Below are positions 4,990 to 64,000 of a DNA stretch of 64,000 nt, piece by piece (the stretch's first letter is position 1; every line of letters begins with the position of its first letter). The stretch spans positions 124,001 through 188,000 of the forward strand of contig JAQFWX010000065.1 of the NCBI GenBank assembly GCA_027605045.1, written 5' to 3'. The notes under the pieces were generated by a model. The model searched no databases, was not told the origin of the DNA, and saw only the letters and a list, made by a program, of their open reading frames with translations. A program made the translations under genes and the position numbers. This DNA comes from Phallus indusiatus (Eukaryota > Basidiomycota > Agaricomycetes > Phallales > Phallaceae).

Positions 4990-5765
4990 AGACTTCATAA
5001 TCGATATGTACCAATGACGAATTCAGAAGGCTAAACATGATAACTAATAACCTTTCACGTGGAGATTTTTTTTCTTTTTTTGCCTAATTTTAGAATACAT
5101 TCCTATGCCTTTACATAATGAAAGCAAACTTTTATAAGGTCGACTTTCCTAAACCGCATTTCTTTATTTCTGACTCTCTTTTTATGACTCAAACGTTTTT
5201 CAAAAACCTATAAACTCTCATTTGTATGCCACAATTCCTCACTCAGACTTTCAAAATAACGAAGATTTACAACTCATTTGCTCACTATACCTAAGTTTTC
5301 ACGCCGTTTGCACTGGTTTCTATTACCGCAAAGTCGTTAGTTTATTCCAAAAATTCTTCTACCAAATTTACACAAATGTGGAACGTCGACCGATCAATGC
5401 ACATGGATTTCTTTTATGCTTGCCAAGTTTGAATAATCAAATTCCGATAATTGGGTGGGGTGACTGTTTTATATACAAGTATGATACCACTGTAGCTTAA
5501 TTTGTGTGAAGCACAAGAACGTCTCATTCTTTGATTGACTATTGGATCACATAGAAGAGGTTTATGTTGTATTTGAACAATCATTTAGAATTTTAAACAA
5601 CGGGCAAAAGGATATTTACTTAGGAAAGCAGAAAGTGACACAGCGCTAAAACATCGCGTCGCAAGTGTGTTCACGGACTCACTTGCTTAAGTTTCCTGAC
5701 TTAAGATGATGTCTTTTGCACGAAGAGAGCGAGGTGTGATTGAGCATTGAAACGGCACGGGTAAT
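4990..5765. other. Intergenic, no gene recognised
   Basis: A 92-codon plus-strand frame at 5222-5500 has no recognisable motif, no upstream promoter-like signal and no splice partners. The rest is AT-rich. Confidence 0.4.
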
Positions 5766-7560
5766 CTAGACACAAAACACCGTCAAACTGAGATAAAAGA
5801 TGAGCCTCTCAAATGATACTAACGGTAGAGCCGATTCAGTGATCTCATCAGAAACTGGTATATCTACTCCATCTTTGTCCTTCATTGGTGTGATGTCAAA
5901 TACCTTGAAAATCGAAGCAATTAAAAGGAAAATCGTAGTATCGGCGAAAAAACGACCGGGACACGTTCTATATTACGACGTTAAATTCAGTCTGGCTGCG
6001 CCGTGAGACGTTTGAAACACTGACCTTCGCCCAAACCCAAATTGTTCAGTTGGCAATTGAACACCAGGCTGAAAGAATCTTTCGGGATTGAAATCTTCCG
6101 GGTTAGGGCCATATTTTGAGCCACGCAATATTTGCCTGGTTTGAGTAAATTAAATGTGACATAAAGGCTTGGAATTGACACACACCATAAATCTGCAAAA
6201 ATGATGCTTCCCTTCGGTATGAAGTACTCTTTATATATACCATCCTCAAGAGCAGTATGCGCCACACCCAAGGGCGCACTTGGTCTCCAACGCATAACCT
6301 CGTGAACAAAAGCATTAACATAAGGCAAATCGGCTCGATCAGCCAATGTCGGAAGACGATCACCAAGTACCCGATCCAATTCCTCTTGTACGTTTTTCTG
6401 TGCTTCGGGATATAGCAACGAAGCTACAATTGCTTGTAGAGTGGCGGAAGACGTCTATGAGAAGTCAATTATTAAGGTCATTTCGCTCAGTGATAAACTC
6501 AAACCACGTACAGTGCCCACACTGGCACTATATGCTGAACCAGCCGCATTTTTTATTACTGTCTCGCTATCAGTACGTAAATCTCCGGAGGCTCGCAATC
6601 TCTCCAAAGAATTTGATACGAATGAATGGTCTAATTTCTCGCGATTCTGCTCATCGTGAGGTAAGAAGTGTCAATGATACTCTGTAGTATGATGCACAGT
6701 ACCTTCACAATATTGAATGGGATATCGCGAGCATTCCGAGTCGCTTGCTTATAGTGCTTGATATACCTATTTACCGTTATCCCGGGCACCCAACGAAGAA
6801 TATATTTTACTGAGACATAGCAATCATGTATGAGCAAAACGACATTGATCTAAGCACCTACATATTGGGAAAACATCTATAAGCCATATGCCCGGAATCA
6901 CGACCTGTGTGCCTCCTTCGAGAGCGAGGTGGATAGTATCAATAAGTTTGTCATTTTGTCGTTTGATATCAATGGCATATATTGTCTAACAGAAGGAAAT
7001 AAAGATAAGTAAGACGAATAGCGTTATTAGTGAGATATTAATTTACATCCACTACCATTCTGCTGATGCTAAACTGAATATGCTCCGAAAAATCAGCCGG
7101 ATTCTCGAGTAGATCTTGGAGAAGTAACCTATAGATGGATTAACCTGAGAGAATTACACATAAAATGCAATATAGCGTGCCGAAATGATTTCATTTGAAC
7201 GGGCTCAAGTATAGATACCGCTTTAGAGTTCAAGCACTGCTTCAGTACCTTTACATGACGTCTCCACCAGTCACCATAATGATGAAAGAGAAAATTGTAA
7301 TCCCATCCTAACCTTTATAATATGGGCCTTAATATATACATGAATCGAGAATATATTGGGACTCACAAGTCAGCCATGTGGAGAGTGGGCCTATCGGAAT
7401 AGATCATACCACGCTTTTCAAGCAGCTCTCGGGCAATTTCATCGGAGTATAGGAAAATTATTGGTATTCCGAAGGTGTTAATTGAGACAATGTCGCCTGA
7501 GAATGATGATAAGCAATCTTTCATTAGCAACATCGAATCATACCGTATTTTTCTCTCCAT
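5766..7560 (-). CDS. Cytochrome P450, 5'-truncated
   Basis: Haem-thiolate monooxygenase body in about eight exons. Visible signatures, N to C: GDIVSINTFG and IYSDRP (substrate-recognition region), WWRRHVK (C-helix WxxxR), AGSAYSASVGTTSS (I-helix), HEVMRW (K-helix ExxR), FNPERF and the haem loop FGFGRR-TCPGR. The cysteine loop is split by a 57 bp intron (about 5969-6025), so the axial Cys is present. The membrane anchor and proline-rich hinge are missing: upstream of GDIVSI the sequence runs directly into repeat DR1 (7545-8150), and the apparent ATG at 7560 lies inside that repeat. It may therefore be a recently truncated pseudogene, or its first exon lies beyond the repeat and was not recognised. 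The family resembles basidiomycete P450s that oxidise secondary metabolites. It points the same way as the repeat-peptide gene 1.4 kb upstream, so a former pathway role is possible. Confidence 0.75.
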
Positions 7561-8931: not shown

Positions 8932-9502
8932 TCAGTTCGCAGAAGGAGTCAACGCCACTGCGTCACTCATAGGACCAAGAGCGGCTTATGTTTGGGGTCA
9001 GCGGAGAAAACAGCTCAATTCGAATAGCTTTATTTACCATCATCCGACGTGGGGGTTAAGGATACCGCGTCGGTAAGAGGACCAAAGGTAGAGTCTGCTC
9101 GAAATAAGCATTGGCATCAGGTAACTCAATGTCAGCAGACTAACCGTCGTCCGACGTAGGTGTCAATGCTACCGCGTCGCTCATAGAACCAAGGCTGGAT
9201 TCTACTAGAAAGTTAAAGAACGGACCCGATATTCAACCAATTATTATAACTACCGTCCGAGGTTGGGGTCAAAGACACAGCGTCGGTAAGTGGTCCGAGA
9301 GATTCTTTATGGAATTAGTATTGAAATGGGTCGCAATACTGATAAAATCACCTTCAGAGACTTCGTCTGAGAATTGCACGCATCAAAAACCAAGCACGCG
9401 TATTGGAATCTTGGAATACTCACTGGCGTCGCGCTTCAATAAAGGACTGCCCAAGACTGCGGCAATTTGTACGGAAACCAACAGAAGAGAGAGATATTTC
9501 AT
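8932..9502 (-). CDS. Secreted repeat peptide, candidate RiPP precursor
   Basis: Six exons on the minus strand (9424-9502, 9352-9366, 9254-9304, 9145-9201, 9038-9094, 8932-8984) join to 103 codons, and every intron is phase 1. Exon 1 encodes a signal peptide (MKYLSLLLVSVQIAAVLG) followed by SPLLKRDA, whose KR is a Kex2-type site. Exons 3-6 each encode one copy of a repeat about 14-16 residues long: GPLTDAVSLTPTSD, GSMSDAVALTPTSDD, GPLTDAVSLTPTSDD and GPMSDAVALTPSAN, so the L-T and M-S types alternate. Introns 2-5 are about 47-53 bp, with unrelated interiors. The protein has no transmembrane segment, no cysteine and no CaaX box. Architecture (signal, KR, tandem repeats) and neighbouring UstYa-like genes suggest a ribosomally made, modified peptide. 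Unlike classical dikaritins it has no KR between repeats and no Tyr/Trp in the core, so this is inference. It could instead be a secreted structural or effector peptide. Confidence 0.75.
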
Positions 9503-10236: not shown

Positions 10237-11262
10237 ATGCTGCAATTAAATCGAACTGCTCAATATCACAAACTTCCCGAAGATGAGGCCCTACTTGAAA
10301 AAGACGGTTAATTGCATATTCTTTATCATAAGTTACGCCCACTGACGTAGAGCTCGATACAGAATCCGGACTGGCTGAACCACGCCCAAAGCCTCGCAAT
10401 CTCATCGAATACGTGCTCAAAATTGCCACCGCTATCATACTTGTATGCGCAATTGTGGATGGAGCTCTTTTGGCCTACTTCGTCTCTCGTTCTAATAATA
10501 TGTCTTCTCGGGCAGCTTATGACATGCGAAATCTAGAAACCCCTAGTTCGTATGTTAGACTGGAGCGTCTGTATCGTCAGAAGCCTGTTACTGTGAAATT
10601 CCCTCCGATTCACAACCGTGCCCGGTATTTCATCCAAGTGTCCTCCAAAGAGCGCACCAAAGTTCATAGAATGTGGCCAACGGTCTCTCAGAGCAACACT
10701 GGCCAAGGACTTGTGCCCAACGCGAATAACTTTTTCCAAGTGACGGACGAGGTCAGCTGTTTTTTCCTTCGAAAGTTTTTACTCGCAAAATAATCTGACT
10801 TCGCGAACGTGTCAGATTTCTACCATTGTTCAATTCCGAACCATGGATTTTGGGATGGAAAACTGCAGTCTCTACATCGATTTTCCGTCCACGCCGAGGA
10901 CTGAGACAAACATCACGCGGATCTCAAGTTCCGAAGGCGAAACTGCCACACTTGATATATGGGCTTTGGAAAGCGAGAAAAGACTGAATCCCCGTCAGCT
11001 TACTTGGAACACCAAGCCTGCTCGCCGAAAGTATCTCGGTTCTACTCGGATCTCATTCGGAACAAAATCACTATTCTCTACGTTCAGTTGTAAATCAGGT
11101 TCTTATCAAACTTTCGAAGTCGGATGTTCCAGCAAGGCATGCAACGTCACCAGTACTGATTTCGAGTGGAACGGAGATGGTACGTGTTATTGTCCGTCGT
11201 GAGATTCCATTAATGACGATAATTCTCTAGTGTTCTATCTAATTCAGAACCAGTCGATTTAG
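10237..11262 (+). CDS. Membrane-anchored protein with But2-C-like domain
   Basis: Four exons (10237-10306, 10351-10751, 10816-11179, 11231-11262) join in frame to 288 residues. A short cytosolic N-terminus (MLQLNRTAQYHKLPEDEALL) is followed by a single hydrophobic segment around IATAIILVCAIVDGALLAYF, then a lumenal or extracellular domain. The C-terminal part (FGMENCSLYIDFPS, LDIWAL, FSCKSGSYQTFEVGC, C-terminus VFYLIQNQSI) resembles fungal proteins annotated as ubiquitin 3 binding protein But2 C-terminal domain. The last exon was chosen because it restores the aromatic/Q-rich ending typical of that family; read-through would give a stop at 11202. The type II topology is the same as the two UstYa-like proteins downstream, and the gene lies between them and the repeat peptide. 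Function unknown; participation in the same pathway is inferred from position only. Confidence 0.7.
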
Positions 11263-12006: not shown

Positions 12007-12616
12007 ATGCATTTTACGCTCCCCGTGAAATTAGGAATCGTCGTTTCTGCAGTTGCGAAAGGAGCACTACTGATCGCGCTCTGGAAAGAACAATCCGGAC
12101 GTACGGTTTCGCAAGATCAACCCATATACTGTAAGTTAAACATGCCTTCAATCTGCGCAATGGAACCTTTGAATCAGATACTAACTTTCAACTTCATACA
12201 TGTATACAGTCTCTATGAACAAGGATGTTCCAAGTCTCCAAAAATTCCCAAATCGCCTCGTTAATATGAACATAGAGGATACCGTTCATTATGGAATCTT
12301 CGAGCCTGCGGCAGATGCAGAATGGGCCGAACTCGTTCCTAACGGTGGTCTGGTCGAAGTCGAAAATGAAACATACACCATTTCGTTGTTCCATCAATTA
12401 GGTTGCCTTGACATTATACGTCGAGCGTTGAGAGACCGAACGACACACAAGCCTGGTAATCTCGAGAGACATTGTCTTAATTATCTACGGCAGGCGTTGG
12501 TGTGCAGGAGTGACATCCATATGGAAATATTAGGAGGCCCTTTGAGTCACACCGAAGCTATTCAGGACACATTTGTGTGCAATGACTGGGAAAGGATGTA
12601 TAGTAATATCAACTAA
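12007..12616 (+). CDS. UstYa-like (DUF3328) protein, variant active-site motif
   Basis: Two exons (12007-12130, 12210-12616) give 176 residues; the intron is phase 1 after the QPIY codons. An N-terminal hydrophobic segment (VKLGIVVSAVAKGALLIALW) is a signal anchor. The catalytic region reads FHQLGCLDIIRRAL ... ERHCLNYLRQALVC ... CNDW. UstYa-family oxidases of fungal ribosomal-peptide and some non-ribosomal pathways carry HxxHC twice. Here the first motif is HQLGC, with Gly in place of the second His, while the second motif is reduced to RHCLNYLRQ, as in many family members. Activity may be altered, or the protein may act as a partner of the second copy. It lies 1.2 kb upstream of a paralogue on the same strand with the same intron position. 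Confidence 0.85.
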
Positions 12617-13818: not shown

Positions 13819-14565
13819 ATGACCTCAGTCAAGTGGCAAACAGGAGCAATTCTTTCTATGTCCATTATATCGCTTCTCACTACATTCCAGCTGTTCCAAA
13901 TCGTCACCGTGCCTTTCGTCGAACAGGCCGTGAGGGAACACCCTCCAACGAGTATCTACGGTGCGTCTAACTATGTCATGTCCTTGGGTTTTTTTTTTTC
14001 AATCAGCCTTTGAATGATCATCTAGCATTTCAAGACGATGACTACGCTCCTTTTCTCCCCGTCCCGCCAGCCCCCCCTGTGCTGATGGATTTCGAAGAGA
14101 GTGTTCATTACCCTCTTACCTTAACAAACGGATTCGACGATGAGTGGTTATACAATTTACCTTTCGGGACAGGGAGTTATCGAGTAACGAGCGAGGACGG
14201 TCTTATTGTCACGGAAATTGCGACGTACCATCAGCTCCACTGTCTAAGGCTATTCATAAGAGATATGACTTCGCATAACACCAGTTTGGGTCACTCACGC
14301 CATTGTTTAAACTATTTGCGTCAAGGTTTTTTATGCGAAGCAGACAGTACGCTCGAACCGAAGGAGTTTTTCACGAAGAATGCTACCGGATATGACAACT
14401 ATCCCACTAGAGTTTGCAGAGATTGGACGACTGTGTATAACCTTATGGAAGAAAATTGGAGGGAGTGGCTTCGCTACCAAGCTCAAAATGCTTCAAGTGA
14501 GTTGTTCTCCCTCGTATGTGCTCTCATTCAGAAAGTAAATGTTCTTTTCTGTAGCAGCCAGCTAA
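13819..14565 (+). CDS. UstYa-like (DUF3328) oxidase, HxxHC intact
   Basis: Three exons (13819-13960, 14026-14496, 14555-14565) give 207 residues. The acceptor at 14025 was chosen because it keeps the frame and places the first intron exactly where the upstream paralogue has it, phase 1 after an Ile-Tyr. The N-terminal hydrophobic segment (AILSMSIISLLTTFQLFQIV) is a signal anchor. The motifs TYHQLHCLRLFIRDM and SRHCLNYLRQGFLCEADSTL match the UstYa family, copper-dependent-type oxidases that modify peptide side chains (for example cyclisation in dikaritin pathways). Its place 4.3 kb from the repeat-peptide gene makes that peptide a plausible substrate, though not demonstrated. The last few residues depend on a micro-exon and are uncertain. 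Confidence 0.85.
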
Positions 14566-25851: not shown

Positions 25852-27414
25852 ATGTTTTCCCAAGTTGCAAGTTCTGACTTATGGCTCCCTTCTATAACGG
25901 GACCGCTCGCCAAGTCCTCTTGTCTGCTTTTCATCATCTACTTTCTGGGGTTCTTTATTGCTAGTTACGACGCCCTATGTGTTAGTGTTATTTTTTTGGA
26001 TATCTTAGCTGGATATGCTGACCCTCCTTTGACTCAAGCTTTATATCATAACTTGTCTCGCTACACCTTCAGCTTCTGAATCAACCTCCTCTGAAGAGCC
26101 TCAACCCTCGAAAGACAATTCGGAACCTACTAAACCTACAACTACAACCCCCGACACCGGAAGATGGCGTTTGGTTCTAGGGCTCTTCATTTTTTCGGGA
26201 TTGATCTCTCTTCAAGATATCAATTTTCGAAAGGATGACACTCAGTCTATTGATGAAATTATCCTTAACCATATGGGAACCTTGTTTTATATCAGCTTAG
26301 TGTATGTTGTAGGAAAGGTAAGTATATTCTACTAGTTGACAACCCAGTTTCCTTGACCGCCCACTACTAGGTGGCTATCTCATTAAATACTATGTGAGTT
26401 ATACGTCCATCCACTGGCAGAACGTACATTATTTTAGTAATTATTCGCTGAACATGAACATGCAAAGATTTGTGACGAGAGGCAACATAGTATCTTCGAG
26501 TTTCTTGATTATATCTTTGACTGGAATCATTGGCTATTTCGCTCTGGTGATGCCGCTGGGATTGTATGGATCAAGTAATGGACTCTCCGTTTGCGTCGTT
26601 ACATTGTCTTTAGTCTACCTTACATCTGGTTGGCCATCGGGAAAAAGTCCACGATGGAAACAAGTGTGCAGATATTGGGTTCTACACATGGTGTGGATCC
26701 TTCTCCTTGTTGACTTATCATCTTGAACTAACTCAGGTTGTACCTTTTCTAGCTCATAATTTCGGCACCTTGGTATGCTGTTATCCAATTAATTTCCATG
26801 ACAACCAAGTCCCAAGATGGAGAAGATATTTGGCCAAAACTCGCATTTCAAGGCATATACATAGCCTTTGTACCGGCCGCGTTGACTTCCTTTGGTCCGG
26901 GTAGCCTGATCGCGCGCATGCTTCGATTCGACTTCAAAACCCACCTTGACAGGGGTGGAATAGCTCTGAGACAAAGGACTCCAGAGCAGTCCTTGAATGA
27001 ACCCCAGTCCCGCTGGGTGATAATCAAAGTCGCAACCGATATATTCGCTCTTCAATTCCCTAAGCCTTATTTTACTATCTCCATCATAACATGGAGCTTC
27101 ATACGGATTGTAACCATCGGTTTATGTCTCTCTACGGGATTCCCAGCCAAGAGTCCGTTCGATGCTTGTTTTTATGCGGTTCTGGTAGAATCTCCGATCA
27201 TGATGGCTGTAATATTTTTATGGGGAGTAGTCAGAGGAGAAACCAAACTTTTGTCGAATTACGAGTGAGTTATCATTTTTTTTTGCTCCGGAGTTTTAGT
27301 TTTGATTTTCGTTTTCTTTTTCTTAGGGAGAATTGGACCCCCAAGTCTAGTAAGGGGACTCAGGCGGATGTAACGACGACTCAGAACGATGAGAAACTTC
27401 AACAAATTGTCTAG
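25852..27414 (+). CDS. Polytopic SPP-like membrane protein, copy A (catalytic Asp absent)
   Basis: Six or seven exons join in frame (first exon 25852-25978, stop at 27412-27414). The protein has about eight hydrophobic segments: LLFIIYFLGFFIASY, WRLVLGLFIFSGLISL, GTLFYISLVYVVGK, IISLTGIIGYFALVMPL and others. The C-terminal half reads IWPKLAFQGIYIAFVPAAL, FGPGSLIARMLRFDF, FPKPYFTISIITWSFIRI, VIFLWGVVRGETK, and a short Lys/Thr-rich tail. Spacing and wording resemble signal peptide peptidase (GxGD...PGxxxAxxLRFD ... KPYF ... RGExKxLxxYE). Where the GxGD aspartate is expected there is Thr (AALT), and no PAL motif is visible. It is therefore a probable non-proteolytic member of the presenilin/SPP fold. 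It appears intact, and is one of at least seven related copies or fragments in the window. Confidence 0.7.
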
Positions 27415-49288: not shown

Positions 49289-50774
49289 TCATTGTTTCTT
49301 CGTCGTCATCTCTTTGTCTAAATTGGAAGGCTCTCTTATCCAGCGCTCTCTGGAGTTGAATTGTCGAAAATCAGATTTTGGTAGTATGCGAGTAGAAAGG
49401 TTTAAGCTCACTCATATTTCCACAGACTTTTAGCCTCTCCTCTGATAACTCCCAGCAAAAATACGGCAGCCGTTATAGCCGGAAATTCTATAACAACCGC
49501 AACGAAACAGGCGTCATACAAGTTCTTGAAAGGAAAGCCGGCTACAAGGCATAATACAACCGTTGCAACGCGCACAAAACTCCAGGCCACAATGGCGGCA
49601 GTGAAATAAGGCTTAGGAAATGGTGTGCTGGGCATTATTATCACTTCTCGGGGTTCACCCGCCTTGTCGGTACATAGTTTCAACTCATCGACGTGATTCT
49701 GGAAGTCATATCGAAGCATACGGGCAATCAAAGCACCTGAATAGTACGACGACATTGCTGTTGGCAGATAGGACATGTTTAAATCCTGAAACGTGATCGC
49801 AAACCATGTATCTCCTTCTGGAGATTGGGTGAAAGTGTGCCTAATGTTATATACGATAAAAAGGACAGCGAGCTGATGAATGCTGGTCAGTTCATTTGAG
49901 CTGGTTTTTTCAATAAAAACAAGGAAATCCAACCGAATGATGAGCCCAGAATCCAAACATATGCCACCACTGTCGCAATTTACCCATGTTCCCTTCGGTT
50001 GCGAAGCAAACGAGTGCAAAGGCAACAACGCATACACAAGCTGTGTCATTTTGAAACGAGCCAACTGTTACCGAAACGAAGAAAAAGATGATGCACAGGT
50101 TGAGATTTGTAAACAAATTGCCGCCTTGCTCAGTACCAGCCTGAGACTGACTAAGATTTGAAAATCTTGAAGGGTTTTCTTATGAATTCGTTTGTTTCAA
50201 TATGATTTAGAACTCACGTATCGCACATTCGAAATGCAGACTAAGATTGAGTTCAGTCATTCAGGGAAATACAAAGCGAGTAGTGAAGTCTTACACTTAG
50301 CACAGCAAAGACCAGGCTTGTGACCATGCAACTTTCTGTAATATTCAACAGAGCCTGCTTCAATTGCCGATTCAATATGAGATTCTCCATGGGAAGGATC
50401 CATTGTAGAACACCAATTTCTAAGGATACTAATACCCGTAAATCAAGAAATATCTTGTAAGTCCAACTTTCAATGGATTTTGAATTGTGCTTCTGAGTCG
50501 AAGAGGGCTTGGCTGGAGCATCAACGGGATAATATCCATGTTTCCTAACTTCAATTGCAGAGCACTATTCCAGTAATCAAATACGTCAGATTATTTAGCT
50601 TTAGCAACTAATATATTTCAAGTTGAAACGACCCACTTGTAAAATCTCGTGACTTTTGAGGATAAACCCTAACAGATAGGGTACGTATAGCAGATATAAA
50701 GACTTGACAAATGACCTCAAAAGAGGGCGCCATAAACCAAGTTTTATCAGAATAGCAAAGTCAGATGAAGGCAT
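49289..50774 (-). CDS. SPP-like membrane protein, copy B
   Basis: Starts MPSSDFAILIKLGLWRPLL; hydrophobic segments include LYLLYVPYLLGFIL, LRVLVSLEIGVLQWI, SCMVTSLVFAVLS and LCIIFFFVSVTVG. The C-terminal half reads MSYLPTAMSSYYSGALIARM, LRYDF, FPKPYFTAAIVAWSFVRV, VFLLGVIRGEAKSLWKYE and, after the last intron, WIREPSNLDKEMTTKK with stop at 49289. It has the same exon plan as copy A (25.8 kb) but is the most diverged of the long copies. The position of the SPP GxGD aspartate is Ser (AMSS). No frameshift noticed. First of the 49-64 kb array. Biochemical function unknown. Confidence 0.65.
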
Positions 50775-52319: not shown

Positions 52320-52921
52320 TCAAACTTTCTCGTCATGTGCGGTCGTCGTTACATCCGCCGTCTTACTGTTAAGCCCGGACTTGGGGGCCCAATTCTCCCT
52401 GAGAAAAAAAAATAAATCAGAATCAAGTAAAATGCCGCAGCGAATGAGAAAAAAAGGGCTGGATCTCACTCGTAATTCCACAGTAATTTGGTTTCTCCTC
52501 TTATAGCTCCCCACAAAAACAATGCACCCATCATAACCGGAAATTCTACAAGAATCGCCCAAAAGCAAGCACCATAAGGACTCTTGGACGGGAAGCCGAT
52601 GAGAAGACATAAGCCGATGGTTGAAATTCGTATGAAGCTCCATGTTAAGATGGCGACAGTAAAGTAAGGCTTAGGGAATCTATGACTGAATAGATTGTAT
52701 CCGATATGAACTAGTACCCGGTCCAACAGAGTCTCAAGTTCGCTGCCAGATCTAATCAGAGAAAGCCCACATTTGTCAAGGTGGTTTTTGAAGTCGAATC
52801 GGAGCATACGAGCGATCAGACAGCCTGGGCCGAACGAGGCCATTGCAGCTGGTAGAAAGGTTACGTATATACCTTGAAACGTAAATCTTGGCCATATATT
52901 TTCTTCAGCTGGAGACTGCTT

Positions 52922-53122
52922 ACGGTGCCCGAGGAGTATCAGGTCACTTTTTTCGTCTGAATTGCAAATTGCTAGTGCCGCGCCTCGGTTAACAGCTGAG
53001 AAACACGTTATGTGACCACAATTGAGTCATACTAAGCCAAAACATTATACGGTTTGTAAGTCTTGGTAGCTTAGCGGGTAAAACCGCTGGTCTTTTTAGC
53101 AGCTCCGGAGTTCGATTTGTGC
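52922..53122 (+). repeat. Left terminal inverted repeat
   Basis: 201 bp arm, reverse complement of 53552-53752 with no mismatch seen. Confidence 0.85.
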
Positions 53123-56412: not shown

Positions 56413-58546
56413 ATGCGGACTTGTAGGTTTCAGCCTGTCTTCCTGAAGCCTCTCCTATATCCTTGTAACAATGAATTTCAGCTTGCTCACGCATGGTTTC
56501 GAAAGTCTGAGCCAGACGATATGAAAAGCGGGTTTGTCCGACTAGCCGTCTTCGCAATCGCCCCCATCGCAACAGCAGTTATAAACCTCCCGTCGGGTCA
56601 GCCTTGGATAAATGGAATTTTACACTTCAGCCTTTATGCGAGTGCCTTGGTACTCTCCATCTTACTTTATCGTGTTTCCCCGTTTCATCCTATGGCTAAA
56701 CATCCCGGACCGCTGATTTGCAAATTATCAAAGTTCTGGATGGCTTGGAAGTTTCATAAAGGAAAGGTGCACATATACTTGAAGGAGCTACACGATCAAT
56801 ACGGATCTATTGTTCGAATTGGTAAATCCTCACATTCCATTTCCCAGAATTCTAACTCTCATGCTGTAATGTCATCGTTCATTTTACAAGGTCCAAACGA
56901 AATTTCTGTCGTAGAGGTCGACCTCATCCCCAACATCCTAGGACAACAAGGCATGCCCAAAGGCCCAATGTGGGAAGGCAGACATCCCACCTTCATTAAA
57001 AATCGGAAAACAGGCGGTAGTCTTGCGTCTTTGCGTGATTATGATCTCCACGCCAAGCATCGTAAACCATGGACTCGGGCATTCGGTCCTGGTCCGTTGA
57101 AAGACTACGAAGAATCCCTCGTTGCTCGGACGGGCGAAATGGTTGATCGTCTCAAAGAGAATTGCAGCAATTCTCCTGATGGGGTAGGAGACGTTGATAT
57201 GTCCCGGTATATTACGCTTTTCAGGCATGTGCTCCTCCTCAAACTCTTCAGGTTGGTTAATACCTGACTAATACAGCTTTGATGTTATGGGAGAGGTGGC
57301 GTGAGTCCTATGCACCCACCGGGATTTAGTATCTAGAACTGAAAATTCTTTTTTTTTTCGCAACTAGCTTTGGAGAAACCTTTAATGCCATGCGTGATGG
57401 AGACGAAGACGGATGCATAGATGGTATACTAAGAGCTGTCAAGTTAGTTTACCTCCGTAAAATCGATACTATTCTCTGCCTCTGCTTAATCTCTTATTAC
57501 CACTGGCAGATCTTCCGCAGTTCTTATGGTACTTCCATGGGCTACCGACTTCATGCGTTTCACTCAACTATTCGCCAGTAAAAGCACCAACGGACAGTTT
57601 AGCAGTCTAGCATATCAGTTAGCGCAGAAGCGGATCAAAAGCACCACGGAGAAACGAGATCTATTTTACCATTTGGTATTAATTTTTTTTTCCGTATTTA
57701 GTTCTCAAAGTTAACCATTGCTTCAGTCGGCAAACATGGATGTGCCCAATGAGAAATTAGTCGTGTCAAACGCAAGTTTCGCTATACTGGCCGGAATGGA
57801 TACATCCTCCTCCGTACTTTGCGGGATGCTTTTTTATCTGCTTAAATATCCTGAGTATATGCGACGCGTGCGAGAAGAGCTTGACGAGGCTTTCCCATCA
57901 TACGCCGATATTCAGATCGATAAGCTGGTTAAGTTGGAGTGGTTGAACGCCATAATGTCAGTGTGCACTCTGATTCACTGATCATGAATTCTCATTCTCA
58001 TTTTTTTCTTTCTCACTGTATTTTCAGAAACGAAACAATGCGCTTTCAACCGCCTGTTTCATCGTATTTGCAAAGAGCTCCACTTGAGAACACCGGAGGA
58101 AGACGTTTAGGAAATATGTACGCGTCTCCGTAGTTTTATTAACGAACCACAGAACTGAAATAAATTATTCTTTCACACATAAACGCAGGTTTATTCCTGA
58201 CCGAGCAACAGTAGTAGTCCCTCCTTACGTCCTGCACCGCGACTCTCGTTACTTCTTTCCAAATCCAAACCAATTTTGGCCTGAACGATGGCTCGCAAAC
58301 GCAAATGAAAAAGTGACCATAAATCGTGCCGCATATATACCATTTTCAACGGGACCGGCGAGTTGCGTAGGAAAACCATTGGCATGGTCGCAATTGAGAT
58401 ATGTAACCGCTTCTTTGGTTTATAATTTTGATTTTTTGTTTGGTCGAGAGTATAATCCGTCGCAGTGGAAGGAGGATTTGCTGGATAAGCTTATGATTGT
58501 TAAGGGTGTTCTGCCTGTTCAAATGAAGGTTAGAGTTCGGTCATAG
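56413..58546 (+). CDS. Cytochrome P450, membrane-anchored
   Basis: About nine exons from ATG 56413 (an alternative start is MKSGFVRLAVFAIAPI at 56521) to the stop at 58546. The N-terminus has hydrophobic anchor segments (FVRLAVFAIAPIATAV, FSLYASALVLSILLY) and the HPGPLICKLSKFWMAW hinge. Later come HRKPWTRAF (C-helix region), AGMDTSSSVL (I-helix, oxygen activation), NETMRFQPPV (K-helix ExxR), FWPERW, and the haem loop FSTGPASCVGKPLAWSQLR with the axial Cys. The GPxxCxGKxLA wording resembles CYP clans oxidising small aromatic or prenylated substrates. All signature residues are present. It sits inside the SPP-like array and is transcribed toward copy D. Confidence 0.85.
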
Positions 58547-58913: not shown

Positions 58914-60438
58914 TTAGAATTTCTCGTCACTTGCAGTCGTCGTGACATCCACAAGCTGTGCCGTCTTACTCTTAGACTCAGACTTAAGGGTCCAATTCTC
59001 CCTGAGAAAAAGAAAAGATAAAATAAATCAGAGCTACCAGCGAATTAAAAATCGGAGCTCACTGGTAATCTCGCAAGAGTTTGGTTTCTCCTCTGACAGC
59101 TCCCCATGAAAATATTACAACCATCATGATCGGAAATTCTACGAGAGCCGCATAAAAACAAGCATCGTACGGACTCTTGGCTGGAAAGCCGATAAAGAGA
59201 CATAAACTGATTGTTACAATCCGTATGAAGATCCATGCTGTTATGGCAACAGTAAAATAAGGCTTAGGGAATCCAATGGCAAACAGATCACTCCCGACTT
59301 TGATTAGTACTCCATGAGGCTGGACTTCATTAGACTCGTCAAGATATGTTAAAGTCAATCCACTCCTGTTGAGATAATTTTTGAAGTCGAATCGAAGCAT
59401 ACGAGCAATCAGGAAACCTGAACCAAACGAGTTCAATGCGGCCGGTATAAAGGCTACGTATATGCCTTGGAATGTAAGCCTTGGCCATATATATTCTCCA
59501 TCTTGGGACTGGTTTTTGGCGGAAAGATGAGTGAAATTATACCCGTGCATTGAAATCTGCATCTAGAGAGAGGTTTAGCTGGCAATGCTCGAGGCGGTCA
59601 GACGAGGAGAGGAACCAAACTGTATGTAGAACCCAGAATAACCATATGAACCCCCACTGTGTACCAGTCTTCCAGCCCCAACCAGATGCGAAATGAACAA
59701 TCGAAAATGTAACGAGCCAAACAGAGGGTTCGATGCTTGAGTTTGATCCATACAAGCCAAGCGTCGCCAAGAGAGCGAAATAAATGATACCTCCAGTCAA
59801 AAATATCACCAAAGGATTCATGAGCGGTACGTTGCTTTTCGTCAAAAACCTTGAATAATTATGAGTTTGGCGAAATGACGAGTGACGCGATGCATGGGAG
59901 TGAATTATAGCATAGTAACCCACATGGTACTTAATGAAAGAATGGCCTGGTAGACAGTAAAAAGAAAACAAGTTGTCTAATAGATTCGACTTACCCGTCC
60001 TACAACAAAAACCAAGCCGGTATATATCAAGGCCCCCATGTAGGCTAGCAGAATCTCGTTGATTCGGGCAACATTCCATGAAAGATTTGCCCATTGTAGG
60101 ACGAACAATACTGCGAAGAACAGAAGCGCTAGGATCAAGCGCCGCTTGTGAGCGGGGGTCAGATTAACAGGCCCAGCAGGTTTGGAATCGTCTTTCTCGG
60201 TTTGAGACTCGAGCTTTTCGGAGGAGGCCGAAGAAGTCAGACAACCTGTCGTGATATAAACCTTGAGTCTCAGGGTTAGTATACCCGGTCATAATTTTTA
60301 AGACTCAAAACTAACACTCAGGGCTTCGTAACTGGCGATAACGAACCCTAGTAAATATGGTATTATAAGAAAACATGTAGATTTTATGAGCGGTCCCATG
60401 GAAGGGTGCCATAAACCAGCATTCTCAAGGGAAAACAT
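58914..60438 (-). CDS. SPP-like membrane protein, copy D (possible frameshift)
   Basis: Start MFSLENAGLWHPSMGPLIKS; segments FLIIPYLLGFVIASY, TGGIIYFALLATLGLYGS and WVLHTVWFLSSS; C-terminal half IWPRLTFQGIYVAFIPAAL, FGSGFLIARMLRFDF, KPYFTVAITAWIFIRI, FSWGAVRGETKLLRDYQ; last exon ENWTLKSESKSKTAQ with stop at 58914. Close relative of A and C. Around 59565-59615 the exon that ends WFLSS appears one base shorter than the matching position in A and C, which would break the frame across the following intron (about 59565-59610). Unless splicing differs there, this copy may be a young pseudogene. The GxGD aspartate position is Asn (ALNS). Confidence 0.6.
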
Positions 60439-60851: not shown

Positions 60852-62345
60852 TTATAATGATATTGGCCCTTCCATCAGGGACAACTTCCAGGTTTCGCTG
60901 TCGAAGCAGTCAATGCACATATCCAAAGAGACGATCCAGAAAGACGTACTTATAATTCCATAGTGCTTTATTTTCCTTCCTGATAGCCGCAAATAATGAT
61001 AATACAGCGACAAGAATCGGGAATTCGAACAATAGCGCCATTGCACATACGAAATACGGATTTGATACCGGGAATCCAATTCCGAGGTTTAAGGCGATGA
61101 TTGTGGCTTGAATGATGCTCCATGTCATAATAGCAACCGTGAAATATGGCTTAAGGAATGCCCGAGGAGCCCTTTGAGGAATCAAGACACCCTCTACTAA
61201 ACCTTTCTTGAAGAAGAGATTGTCAGCAGTCGGCGCGGGGACGGTGGTTAAATCTATATCCTGATCCCAGTTAGGGTCGTCGAGATGTCTGGAATAATCA
61301 TAGCGAAGCATTCGAGCAATCAGGCCACCTGAAAATGCGGAACACAGCGCAGTTGGCACGAAAAGAACGTAAGTCCAGGTTGGAGAAGTTCGTAGCGCGC
61401 TGCCATGATCGATTTGATTTGAGTCAATGAAACGTTGCAAAAAAATGAGCGCTGTAATTGTGACCTGTAAGGAGAGACAGTTAATATGGTGTTCCTTAGA
61501 GAGAACATTTACTTACCACAATATATGTATAGTGCTGCATCATTTTTCTTATTGTTGTTCTCCCGAATGAAGAGGCAGAGGCAGCATGAACTACAGCCAT
61601 CGTAACAAGGCCGACTGATATTATATTGCCTGTCGTCGATAAACCCAAAATCACCAAAAAAGAGGTCAAAGAAATCAGAAGTGCAAATCCGGCATTCTCC
61701 TTGTTGGAGTGACACGGATGTTGACGCGTCAGGTATCCTGCACAGTGCACATAGAAACGATGAATTAGTCTTCTTGAAACCCCCAAAAAAACTTCATACC
61801 TCCATCCGGCTTACGATGGACAACCCTTTTCAGTATGCCCAACTCATTGTATATAAACTAGAAAAGTTTGAACAAAGATACGTTTGTGAGAGGGCTGCAT
61901 TACTTACACCGGCCGTAATAAAAAATAGACCGACGTATAGTGCGCCGTGTAAAATAGCAAGGGTTCTTTGAATGGGTTCGGGCGAAGAACTCTTGATTAT
62001 CAAGTTAAATTCAAGGATACACAGGATTCCTAAAGCCACTGTAGCAATAACAGTATGCCACTTCCTGCCACGGGACTTTCGTGTCTGGCCAGGAGAAGTA
62101 ACAAGTTCATCTGGGTTTGGAGCCGGTAACGCTTTCTTAAGAGCAATCCAGAGCTAAATTAAATGATCTAAGTATAATGTAGGACTAAAGATATAACCCT
62201 GAGTGCTTACGCGTAGCTCATTATAACTGGCGGATATGAATCCCAATAGATAGGGTACGAAGAAAACGGTCAAAGTCTCCGCAACGGCAGTGAAGTCTGA
62301 TGCTACTTTGTCAGTTACCGGCTCGTTTATCGTGGTTGAAAACAT
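60852..62345 (-). CDS. SPP-like membrane protein, copy E
   Basis: Start MFSTTINEPVTDKVASDF; hydrophobic segments FFVPYLLGFISASY, VIATVALGILCILEF, LHGALYVGLFFITAG, LTSFLVILGLSTTGNIISVG. C-terminal half: WTYVLFVPTALCSAFSGGLI, ARMLRYDYSRHLDDPN, PRAFLKPYFTVAIMTWSIIQ, FPILVAVLSLFAAIRKENKA, LWNYK; last exon ETWKLSLMEGPISL with stop at 60852. With copy F it forms a subgroup that differs from A/C/D by a longer loop (TVPAPTADN) between LRYD and KPYF. The GxGD aspartate position is Cys (ALCS). It appears intact. Confidence 0.65.
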
Positions 62346-62966: not shown

Positions 62967-64000
62967 CTACAATACGATATCGTCGGATTTTAACGATATC
63001 GCCCCTTCCGTCGGAGACAGGTTCCAGGTCTCGCTATCGAAACAATTAATACACATATCTAAATAGACGATCTGATCAGAAAAGATGTACTCATAATTCC
63101 ACAATGCTTTGGTCTCCTTTCTTATGGCCGCAAATAATGATAATACAACCACAATAATCGGGAACTCGAGTAATAACGCAATAACACACATTAACGACGG
63201 GTTTGACATCGGATATCCAACTCCAGGGTGTAAGACAATGATTGTGGCTTTAATGATACTCCATGTCACAATAGCGACCGTGAAATATGGTTTAAGGAAA
63301 GCGCGAGGGGCCCGTTTAGGTATCAGGATTCCTTCTACTAAATCGTTTTTCTTGTATAAGAAACTGTCAGCAGTTGGCGCTGGAACAGTGACTAAATCCA
63401 TATCTTGGCCGCCGTTAGGATCGTCGAGATACCTTTGGTAGTCGAAGCGAAGCATTCGAGAAATCAGGCCACCTGACGAAGCGGAACACATCACGGTCGG
63501 TACAGAAAGAACGTAAAGCCAATCTGAACAAATCTTCAGCACGTTATCATAATCGATTTGCTTGAAATAAGTTGTGCGTGACAACGAAATGACTTGGACA
63601 ATGGCTGCCATTGCGATCTGTAAAACAACAAAATACGATTAATGTATTGTTGTGTTCGGAAAAGACGTCCACTGACTAAAATCATGACATAGCGCTTCAT
63701 CATTTTTTGCAATGTCACTTTCCCAAAGGTCGAGCTAGTTGAAGAGGCATGAACCACAGCCGTGGTAACAATACCGACTGATATTATGTTGCCTGTCGTC
63801 GATAAACCTAGAATCACCATGAAAGAGGCCAAAGATATCAGAAGGGACAACCGAGCATTTTCCTTGTAAGAACGAGACTTGTGTATACGTGTTAAGTATC
63901 CTGCAAGTGAACGGTGAACTAATCTTCTTTAACATCCGAAACAACACCATACCTCCATTCGGCTTGCGATGAACGATTTGCCTAGTTAGGCCAAATTTAC
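62967..64000 (-). CDS. SPP-like membrane protein, copy F (partial at window edge)
   Basis: The C-terminal part of a copy close to E; its 5' exons lie beyond 64000. Visible: SLASFMVILGLSTTGNIISV, WLYVLSVPTVMCSASSGGLI, SRMLRFDYQRYLDDPN, TVPAPTADS, FLKPYFTVAIVTWSIIKATI, VVLSLFAAIRKETKALWNYE; last exon ETWNLSPTEGAISLKSDDIV with stop at 62967. The GxGD aspartate position is Cys (VMCS). The opening part near 63900-64000 matches the same region in fragment G. Confidence 0.65.

Follow-up and report, generated by a model that had tools for sequence, protein, structure and literature searches.

Dikaritins (ustiloxin, phomopsin, asperipin-2a and victorin) are defined by a precursor of the KEP type together with UstYa/DUF3328 proteins (PMC10512285; PMC9769878; this and all further papers are cited from excerpts). 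DUF3328/UstYa proteins act in cyclisation, chlorination, hydroxylation and transacylation (PMC10880069; PMC10512285), and in phomopsins the formation of dehydro-Ile, dehydro-Asp and dehydro-Pro has been attributed to three of them (PMC10880069, by gene inactivations; PMC10512285). KEPs are defined by Kex2 sites between their repeats (PMC6339444; PMC9769878), and precursor surveys look for repeats with such sites between them (PMC6339444). Among basidiomycete KEPs, 103 of 1680 have a DUF3328 neighbour; UstYa-linked KEPs are thus known in basidiomycetes but few. Tyr was found in 65.6% of the repeats of DUF3328-linked KEPs and is common, not universal (PMC7329392). For Pleurotus ostreatus, 16 UstYa-like genes were reported, six of them developmentally expressed (PMC8893723).

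The window is the whole 64 kb stretch of DNA analysed here (C168:124001-188000, from an assembly of 67.2 Mb in 206 contigs). It contains a small repeat gene at 9502-8932 which is likely to be the precursor of a UstYa-modified, secreted basidiomycete RiPP whose core number has grown by exon duplication, and which is called the precursor gene below. An earlier note, made from the sequence of the window, had described six exons, five phase-1 introns, a signal peptide, a KR site and four repeats at this position, and all of these were recovered in a single open frame of 312 nt after splicing. The gene lies on the minus strand, a point missing from that note. Exon lengths are 79, 15, 51, 57, 57 and 53 nt, and the GT-AG introns, all in phase 1, measure 57, 47, 52, 50 and 53 nt; exons 2-5 are each a multiple of 3 (Table 1). 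The frame encodes MKYLSLLLVSVQIAAVLGSPLLKRDANEVSEESLGPLTDAVSLTPTSDESSLGSMSDAVALTPTSDDDSTFGPLTDAVSLTPTSDDAALGPMSDAVALTPSAN, a product of 103 residues with a predicted signal peptide, one KR and four near-identical units LGP[LM][TS]DAV[SA]LTPTSD. By a simple hydropathy rule the N-terminus is hydrophobic, as expected of a signal peptide. K or R occurs at residues 2, 23 and 24 only, with no dibasic site past residue 24, and the 79-residue chain after KR has a net charge of -15, is rich in Ser/Thr and contains no Y, W, H or C. In a six-frame translation of the window, DAV[SA]LTP was found at the four core exons only. The frame also stays open if the 15-nt exon 2 is omitted; this exon was retained because the paralogues described below carry a longer exon at the same place and phase. 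Intron 2 has TACTAAT near its acceptor, and the unspliced frame there holds a stop codon.

Table 1. Coordinates of the precursor gene and its neighbours in the window.
Feature	Position	Strand	Basis and remarks
Precursor exon 1: signal peptide, SPLL, KR site, DA	9424..9502	-	frame and donor GTGAGT; exon type also in three paralogues
Precursor exon 2: acidic spacer NEVSE, 15 nt, least certain	9352..9366	-	phase 1 at either boundary
Precursor exon 3: core unit 1 ESLGPLTDAVSLTPTSD	9254..9304	-	spliced frame
Precursor exon 4: core unit 2 ESSLGSMSDAVALTPTSDD	9145..9201	-	spliced frame
Precursor exon 5: core unit 3 DSTFGPLTDAVSLTPTSDD	9038..9094	-	spliced frame
Precursor exon 6: core unit 4 AALGPMSDAVALTPSAN and stop	8932..8984	-	spliced frame
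Membrane-anchored protein with But2 C-terminal domain (PF09792)	10237..11202	+	E 5.6e-12, 46.7 bits; exons 10237-10306, 10351-10751, 10816-11202, drawn by eye
Y1, UstYa family	12007..12616	+	PF11807 E 1.8e-11; first motif HQLGC, one His missing; exons 12007-12130, 12210-12616, drawn by eye
Y2, UstYa family	13819..~14591	+	PF11807 E 8e-14; HQLHC and HSRHC intact; exons 13819-13960, 14026 to about 14591, drawn by eye; 3' end uncertain, third intron possible
Cytochrome P450, candidate cluster member	5760..7500, approximate, by eye	-	PF00067 E 1.6e-22 on 5990-6454

The precursor gene shares with dikaritins the signal peptide, KR, near-identical repeated cores and an adjacent UstYa pair. Unlike them, it has no dibasic sites between the cores, no Tyr in the cores and one core per exon, and its locus lies in a basidiomycete host with a But2-domain gene as conserved neighbour. 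It resembles KEPs in general as a small secreted precursor with internal repeats, but its sole KR stands before the first repeat. As dibasic sites between the cores are missing, it was filed neither as a dikaritin nor as a KEP; surveys of the kind cited above would overlook it, since each core has a very small exon to itself and no Kex2 site separates one core from the next. SP7-like effectors of arbuscular mycorrhizal fungi, likened here by description, are secreted repeat proteins with a conserved intron before the first repeat, and the excerpt of that paper does not mention UstYa linkage (PMC11333574).

The earlier note was silent on the neighbouring genes. A But2-domain gene and two PF11807 genes, Y1 and Y2, lie within 5.1 kb of the precursor gene, the But2 gene beginning 0.7 kb from the precursor start codon on the opposite strand. 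Y1 and Y2 both score above the PF11807 cut-off, so that the UstYa neighbour which defines dikaritins is present. We take paired HxxHC motifs to be the signature of the UstYa family; in both Y2 motifs, His and Cys are invariant across 27 aligned sequences. The closest named relatives of Y2 (26 proteins of 78 candidates) come from mushroom-forming basidiomycetes, among them Lentinula lateritia (39% identity) and Neolentinus lepideus (38%), and the host is therefore probably an agaricomycete. Sequence searches against solved structures brought up nothing convincingly related to Y2 (best E 0.26) or to the But2 protein, and an AlphaFold model of Y2 was discarded (mean pLDDT 52.9, pTM 0.32). The candidate P450 gene of Table 1 lies on the opposite side of the precursor gene from the But2 and UstYa genes, and nothing among the open reading pieces from the remaining UstYa stretches matches it. 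A second P450 was observed at 58088-58543 (plus strand, PF00067 E 2e-23). C184:1064312-1064734, near another UstYa pair, is 28% identical to it, and P450 sequences near UstYa genes are therefore not confined to the precursor locus.

For the cores, the first 12 codons (36 nt) of each unit were compared. Between units 1 and 3, 8 changes are synonymous and 0 are replacements; for units 2 and 4 the counts are 6 and 2, and for the four cross pairs 4.5-8.5 and 4.5. Synonymous differences being many, and units 1 and 3 free of replacements, the core peptide is under selection. The introns are far less alike: pairwise identity among the five introns is 35-49% (ten pairs), compared with 27-31% for shuffled introns. 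All ten pairs thus exceed the shuffles, yet the introns are much more diverged than the cores; their residual likeness may stem either from shared splice motifs or from a remote common origin. The earlier proposal that selection acts on the peptide is borne out. That the alternating unit types arose by duplication of a two-exon block, as also proposed, fared less well. Exons 1 and 3 and exons 2 and 4 of the core series do pair (28/36 identical positions each, 23-27/36 in the other four pairs), but introns 3 and 5, which should match after such an event, are among the least alike (19/53 columns), so that block duplication is at best weakly indicated. Duplication of exons as such, as the way in which the core number grew, is supported by the paralogues, since they hold one core exon and the window gene four.

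These paralogues belong to a second cluster at C129:1769669-1777341, 78 kb from the first on that contig. It carries Y2, Y1 and But2 genes on one strand followed by three precursor genes on the other, in the order and orientation of the window, and its proteins are 71% (Y2), 72% (Y1) and 60-76% (But2) identical to those of the window. The precursor paralogues start at C129:1774705, 1775571 and 1777027. In each, an exon 1 of the window type ends at a GTGAGT donor in phase 1; a second exon, longer than that of the window gene, and a single core exon at the end follow, the core exons encoding ENELNGFLSEPDQLGFHDEVDE, GTKFDEALIDAIQLG and DMLNGPLEAAQQLGAAA, respectively. For the second exon, a later acceptor was rejected because it breaks the frame, and one lying more upstream was chosen, with which 3/3 genes are in phase 1. 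In the paralogue at 1774705, KC replaces KR and the core contains His. When the four window units and the three paralogous cores were aligned, they were alike around GPLxDAVxL with one invariant column, and homology of the cores therefore rests mostly on exon position and phase. The role as a precursor, proposed earlier, gains support from the three paralogues and from the conserved synteny with UstYa and But2-domain genes, though the precursor cluster and the second cluster are duplicates of each other and hence not independent witnesses.

Genome-wide, PF11807 gave at least 20 matches (20 candidates scored) and none in 14 control genomes (0/14). Grouped by locus they form five sets: the precursor locus, the second cluster (C129/C168), C184/C136, C70/C130/C140 and C122. 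The first motif of the Y1-type protein is HQLGC in the second cluster, HELRC on C184 and HQLKC on C70. Judged by their motifs, the UstYa pairs of the window, the second cluster, C184 and C70 each seem to consist of one complete and one incomplete member; the matches at C122 are interrupted by stops and could be fragments of a single gene. For the But2 domain, six of the seven candidates scored represent three loci in two copies each, all adjoining a UstYa pair, and the C184 counterpart is 34-38% identical to the window protein. That locus has a But2/UstYa trio and, on the minus strand at 1058896, a two-exon gene with KR and a phase-1 intron, which is a weak precursor candidate with a core unlike the others. 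No convincing candidate was seen in the 17-18 kb scanned around each of C70 and C122. A DNA pattern of exon 1 had four genomic matches, which are two loci present in two copies each, against 0 for the reversed control. Every match lies 3-6 kb from a UstYa pair, while a random place falls within 10 kb of any of the five UstYa loci with a chance of about 0.003. The count is a lower bound, because the pattern was written from known members and misses the paralogues at 1774705 and 1777027. In scans for signal exons, window starts at 1775, 8988, 8532 and 8505 were dropped as unlike the family, as was the start of the Y1 gene of the second cluster; a further scan led to the same decision for C70 row 68606, a pair of co-located C184 starts, three more window rows and, again, that Y1 start.

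Two further gene types were observed near three of the UstYa loci. One, absent from the window, lies at C129:1767070-1768344, C184:1059343-1060556 and C70:69086-69964 and may be a further cluster member; the other lies at C129:1777807-1778422, C129:1764562-1766401, C184:1053597-1054316 and C70:64475-66463. Two pieces tested of each had no Pfam match, and for the two types together two pieces tested had no convincing match among solved structures.

A second copy of the precursor region (97% identical) is present at C129:1697029-1697830. Window 18000-5595 is collinear with C129:1688678-1701043 (94.5%), and a further 327 columns (89.3%) extend to window position 5196. From their sequences, the C168 and C129 copies are taken to be two haplotypes of a single fungus. 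All six precursor exons recur in the other haplotype, where one inserted base in intron 2 leaves the frame unharmed. Alleles differ at 6/312 exon and 9/259 intron positions, numbers too small for a test. All three allelic amino-acid changes (A/T after KR, V/A in exon 2, T/S before core 3) are outside the GP..LTP cores. At C129:1701364-1702095, about 3.7 kb past the 3' end of the intact gene, the 3' half of the precursor gene and its flank recur as a broken partial copy (85% against window 9210-8444). The haplotypes are structurally different there, because collinearity stops at window 5196, where the partial copy starts. Rfam and tRNA scans of the window gave no matches.

The precursor had no Pfam family above its cut-off. 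Of the 332 candidates that it yielded against about 5.8 billion proteins, none reached E<=1; searching the protein database with five aligned precursor sequences gave 1599 candidates, of which none reached E<=10. These searches therefore add no support from another species, but are weak evidence of absence, because gene callers without splicing miss short multi-exon genes and because the closest UstYa relative (88%) sits on a contig of 4 kb. A DNA pattern of the core had 13 matches in the genome (control: 1 forward, 0 reverse). The core exons of both alleles account for eight of these and the partial copy for one; the other four (C34, C127, C143, C195) were set aside as chance matches, being single and without repeats around them. 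In the literature searched, which covered few subscription journals and was seen in excerpts, no UstYa precursor with one core per exon and no link between UstYa and But2 was described; the two were mentioned together in unrelated passages only. The earlier statement that the core belongs to no described family thus holds for sequence relatives, but the position of the gene in a UstYa cluster points to a known kind of system.

On the reading as a RiPP precursor, the gene probably serves as template for a modified peptide natural product not described before. In the secretory pathway, the leader up to KR would be cut off by signal peptidase and Kex2. Each of the four cores would be modified by the membrane-anchored UstYa pair, with the But2-domain protein as a possible partner. 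Because the sequence after KR lacks Tyr, Trp, His and Cys, the most likely modification is not a Tyr ether crosslink but desaturation, hydroxylation or acyl transfer. Asp, Val, Pro, Thr or Ser are the proposed modified residues; by analogy to phomopsins, Pro, Asp and Val of GP[LM]xDAVxLTP may be targets of oxidation. The usual release of cores by Kex2 is inapplicable, as no dibasic site follows residue 24; another protease might free the cores at the acidic linkers, or one chain of 79 residues might persist. Any bioactivity would be that of a presumed product. During evolution, a phase-1 core exon would have been duplicated from one core, as in the paralogues, to four. That the gene stands for a new class of basidiomycete UstYa RiPPs, with one Tyr-free core per phase-1 exon, no Kex2 sites between the cores, and a But2-domain membrane protein as obligate partner of the UstYa pair, is a tentative generalisation towards which we remain sceptical. 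Equally doubtful is the proposal that in such a class the copy number evolves by gain and loss of exons, may be tuned by splicing, and Pro, Asp and Val are oxidised.

Several observations count against a RiPP. The cores are free of Tyr, the paralogue at 1774705 has KC and a His-bearing core, and 2/5 of the UstYa locus groups (C70/C130/C140 and C122) have no convincing precursor in the stretches fetched. The gene might instead encode an unmodified secreted peptide or a small repeat protein, with a role in signalling or at the cell surface, and with the UstYa genes acting on something else nearby. Cores without Tyr or Cys and a strongly acidic, Ser/Thr-rich chain would suit such a product, and KEP-derived peptides of four Agaricomycetes were described as minimally modified in the excerpt available (PMC9769878). 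We nevertheless regard this as unlikely, since two clusters of diverged paralogues agree in how precursor, UstYa and But2 genes are ordered and oriented, and the genome holds no further match to the exon-1 pattern.

Skipping any of exons 2-5 (15, 51, 57 and 57 nt, with equal phase on both sides) preserves the frame, so that one gene could yield chains of one to four units, as would fit a secreted effector with a splice-variable repeat number. Such an effector would leave the UstYa linkage unexplained and shows no Pfam family over cut-off, and it appears quite improbable. The broken partial copy in the other haplotype would agree with repeats that are a decaying duplicate or a chance frame without function, but frame and splice sites are intact in both haplotypes and synonymous changes are in excess between the cores, which makes this the least credible explanation, hardly to be entertained.

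If the precursor reading is correct, mushroom UstYa genes that seemingly lack a substrate may have overlooked precursors, and the But2-domain protein becomes a candidate third partner for UstYa proteins. The precursor family shows the one-core and four-core states of exon duplication inside one genome.

Elsewhere in the window, a local gene expansion was observed. Six related stretches (26789-27265, 49411-49827, 52469-53026, 59062-59526, 60949-61371 and 63090-63518), of which three were tested and had no Pfam family over cut-off, encode a protein with multiple membrane spans and the pattern IWPxxxFQGIYVxFxPAA...LIARMLRFDF. Five of them are 40-62% identical to the stretch at 52469-53026.
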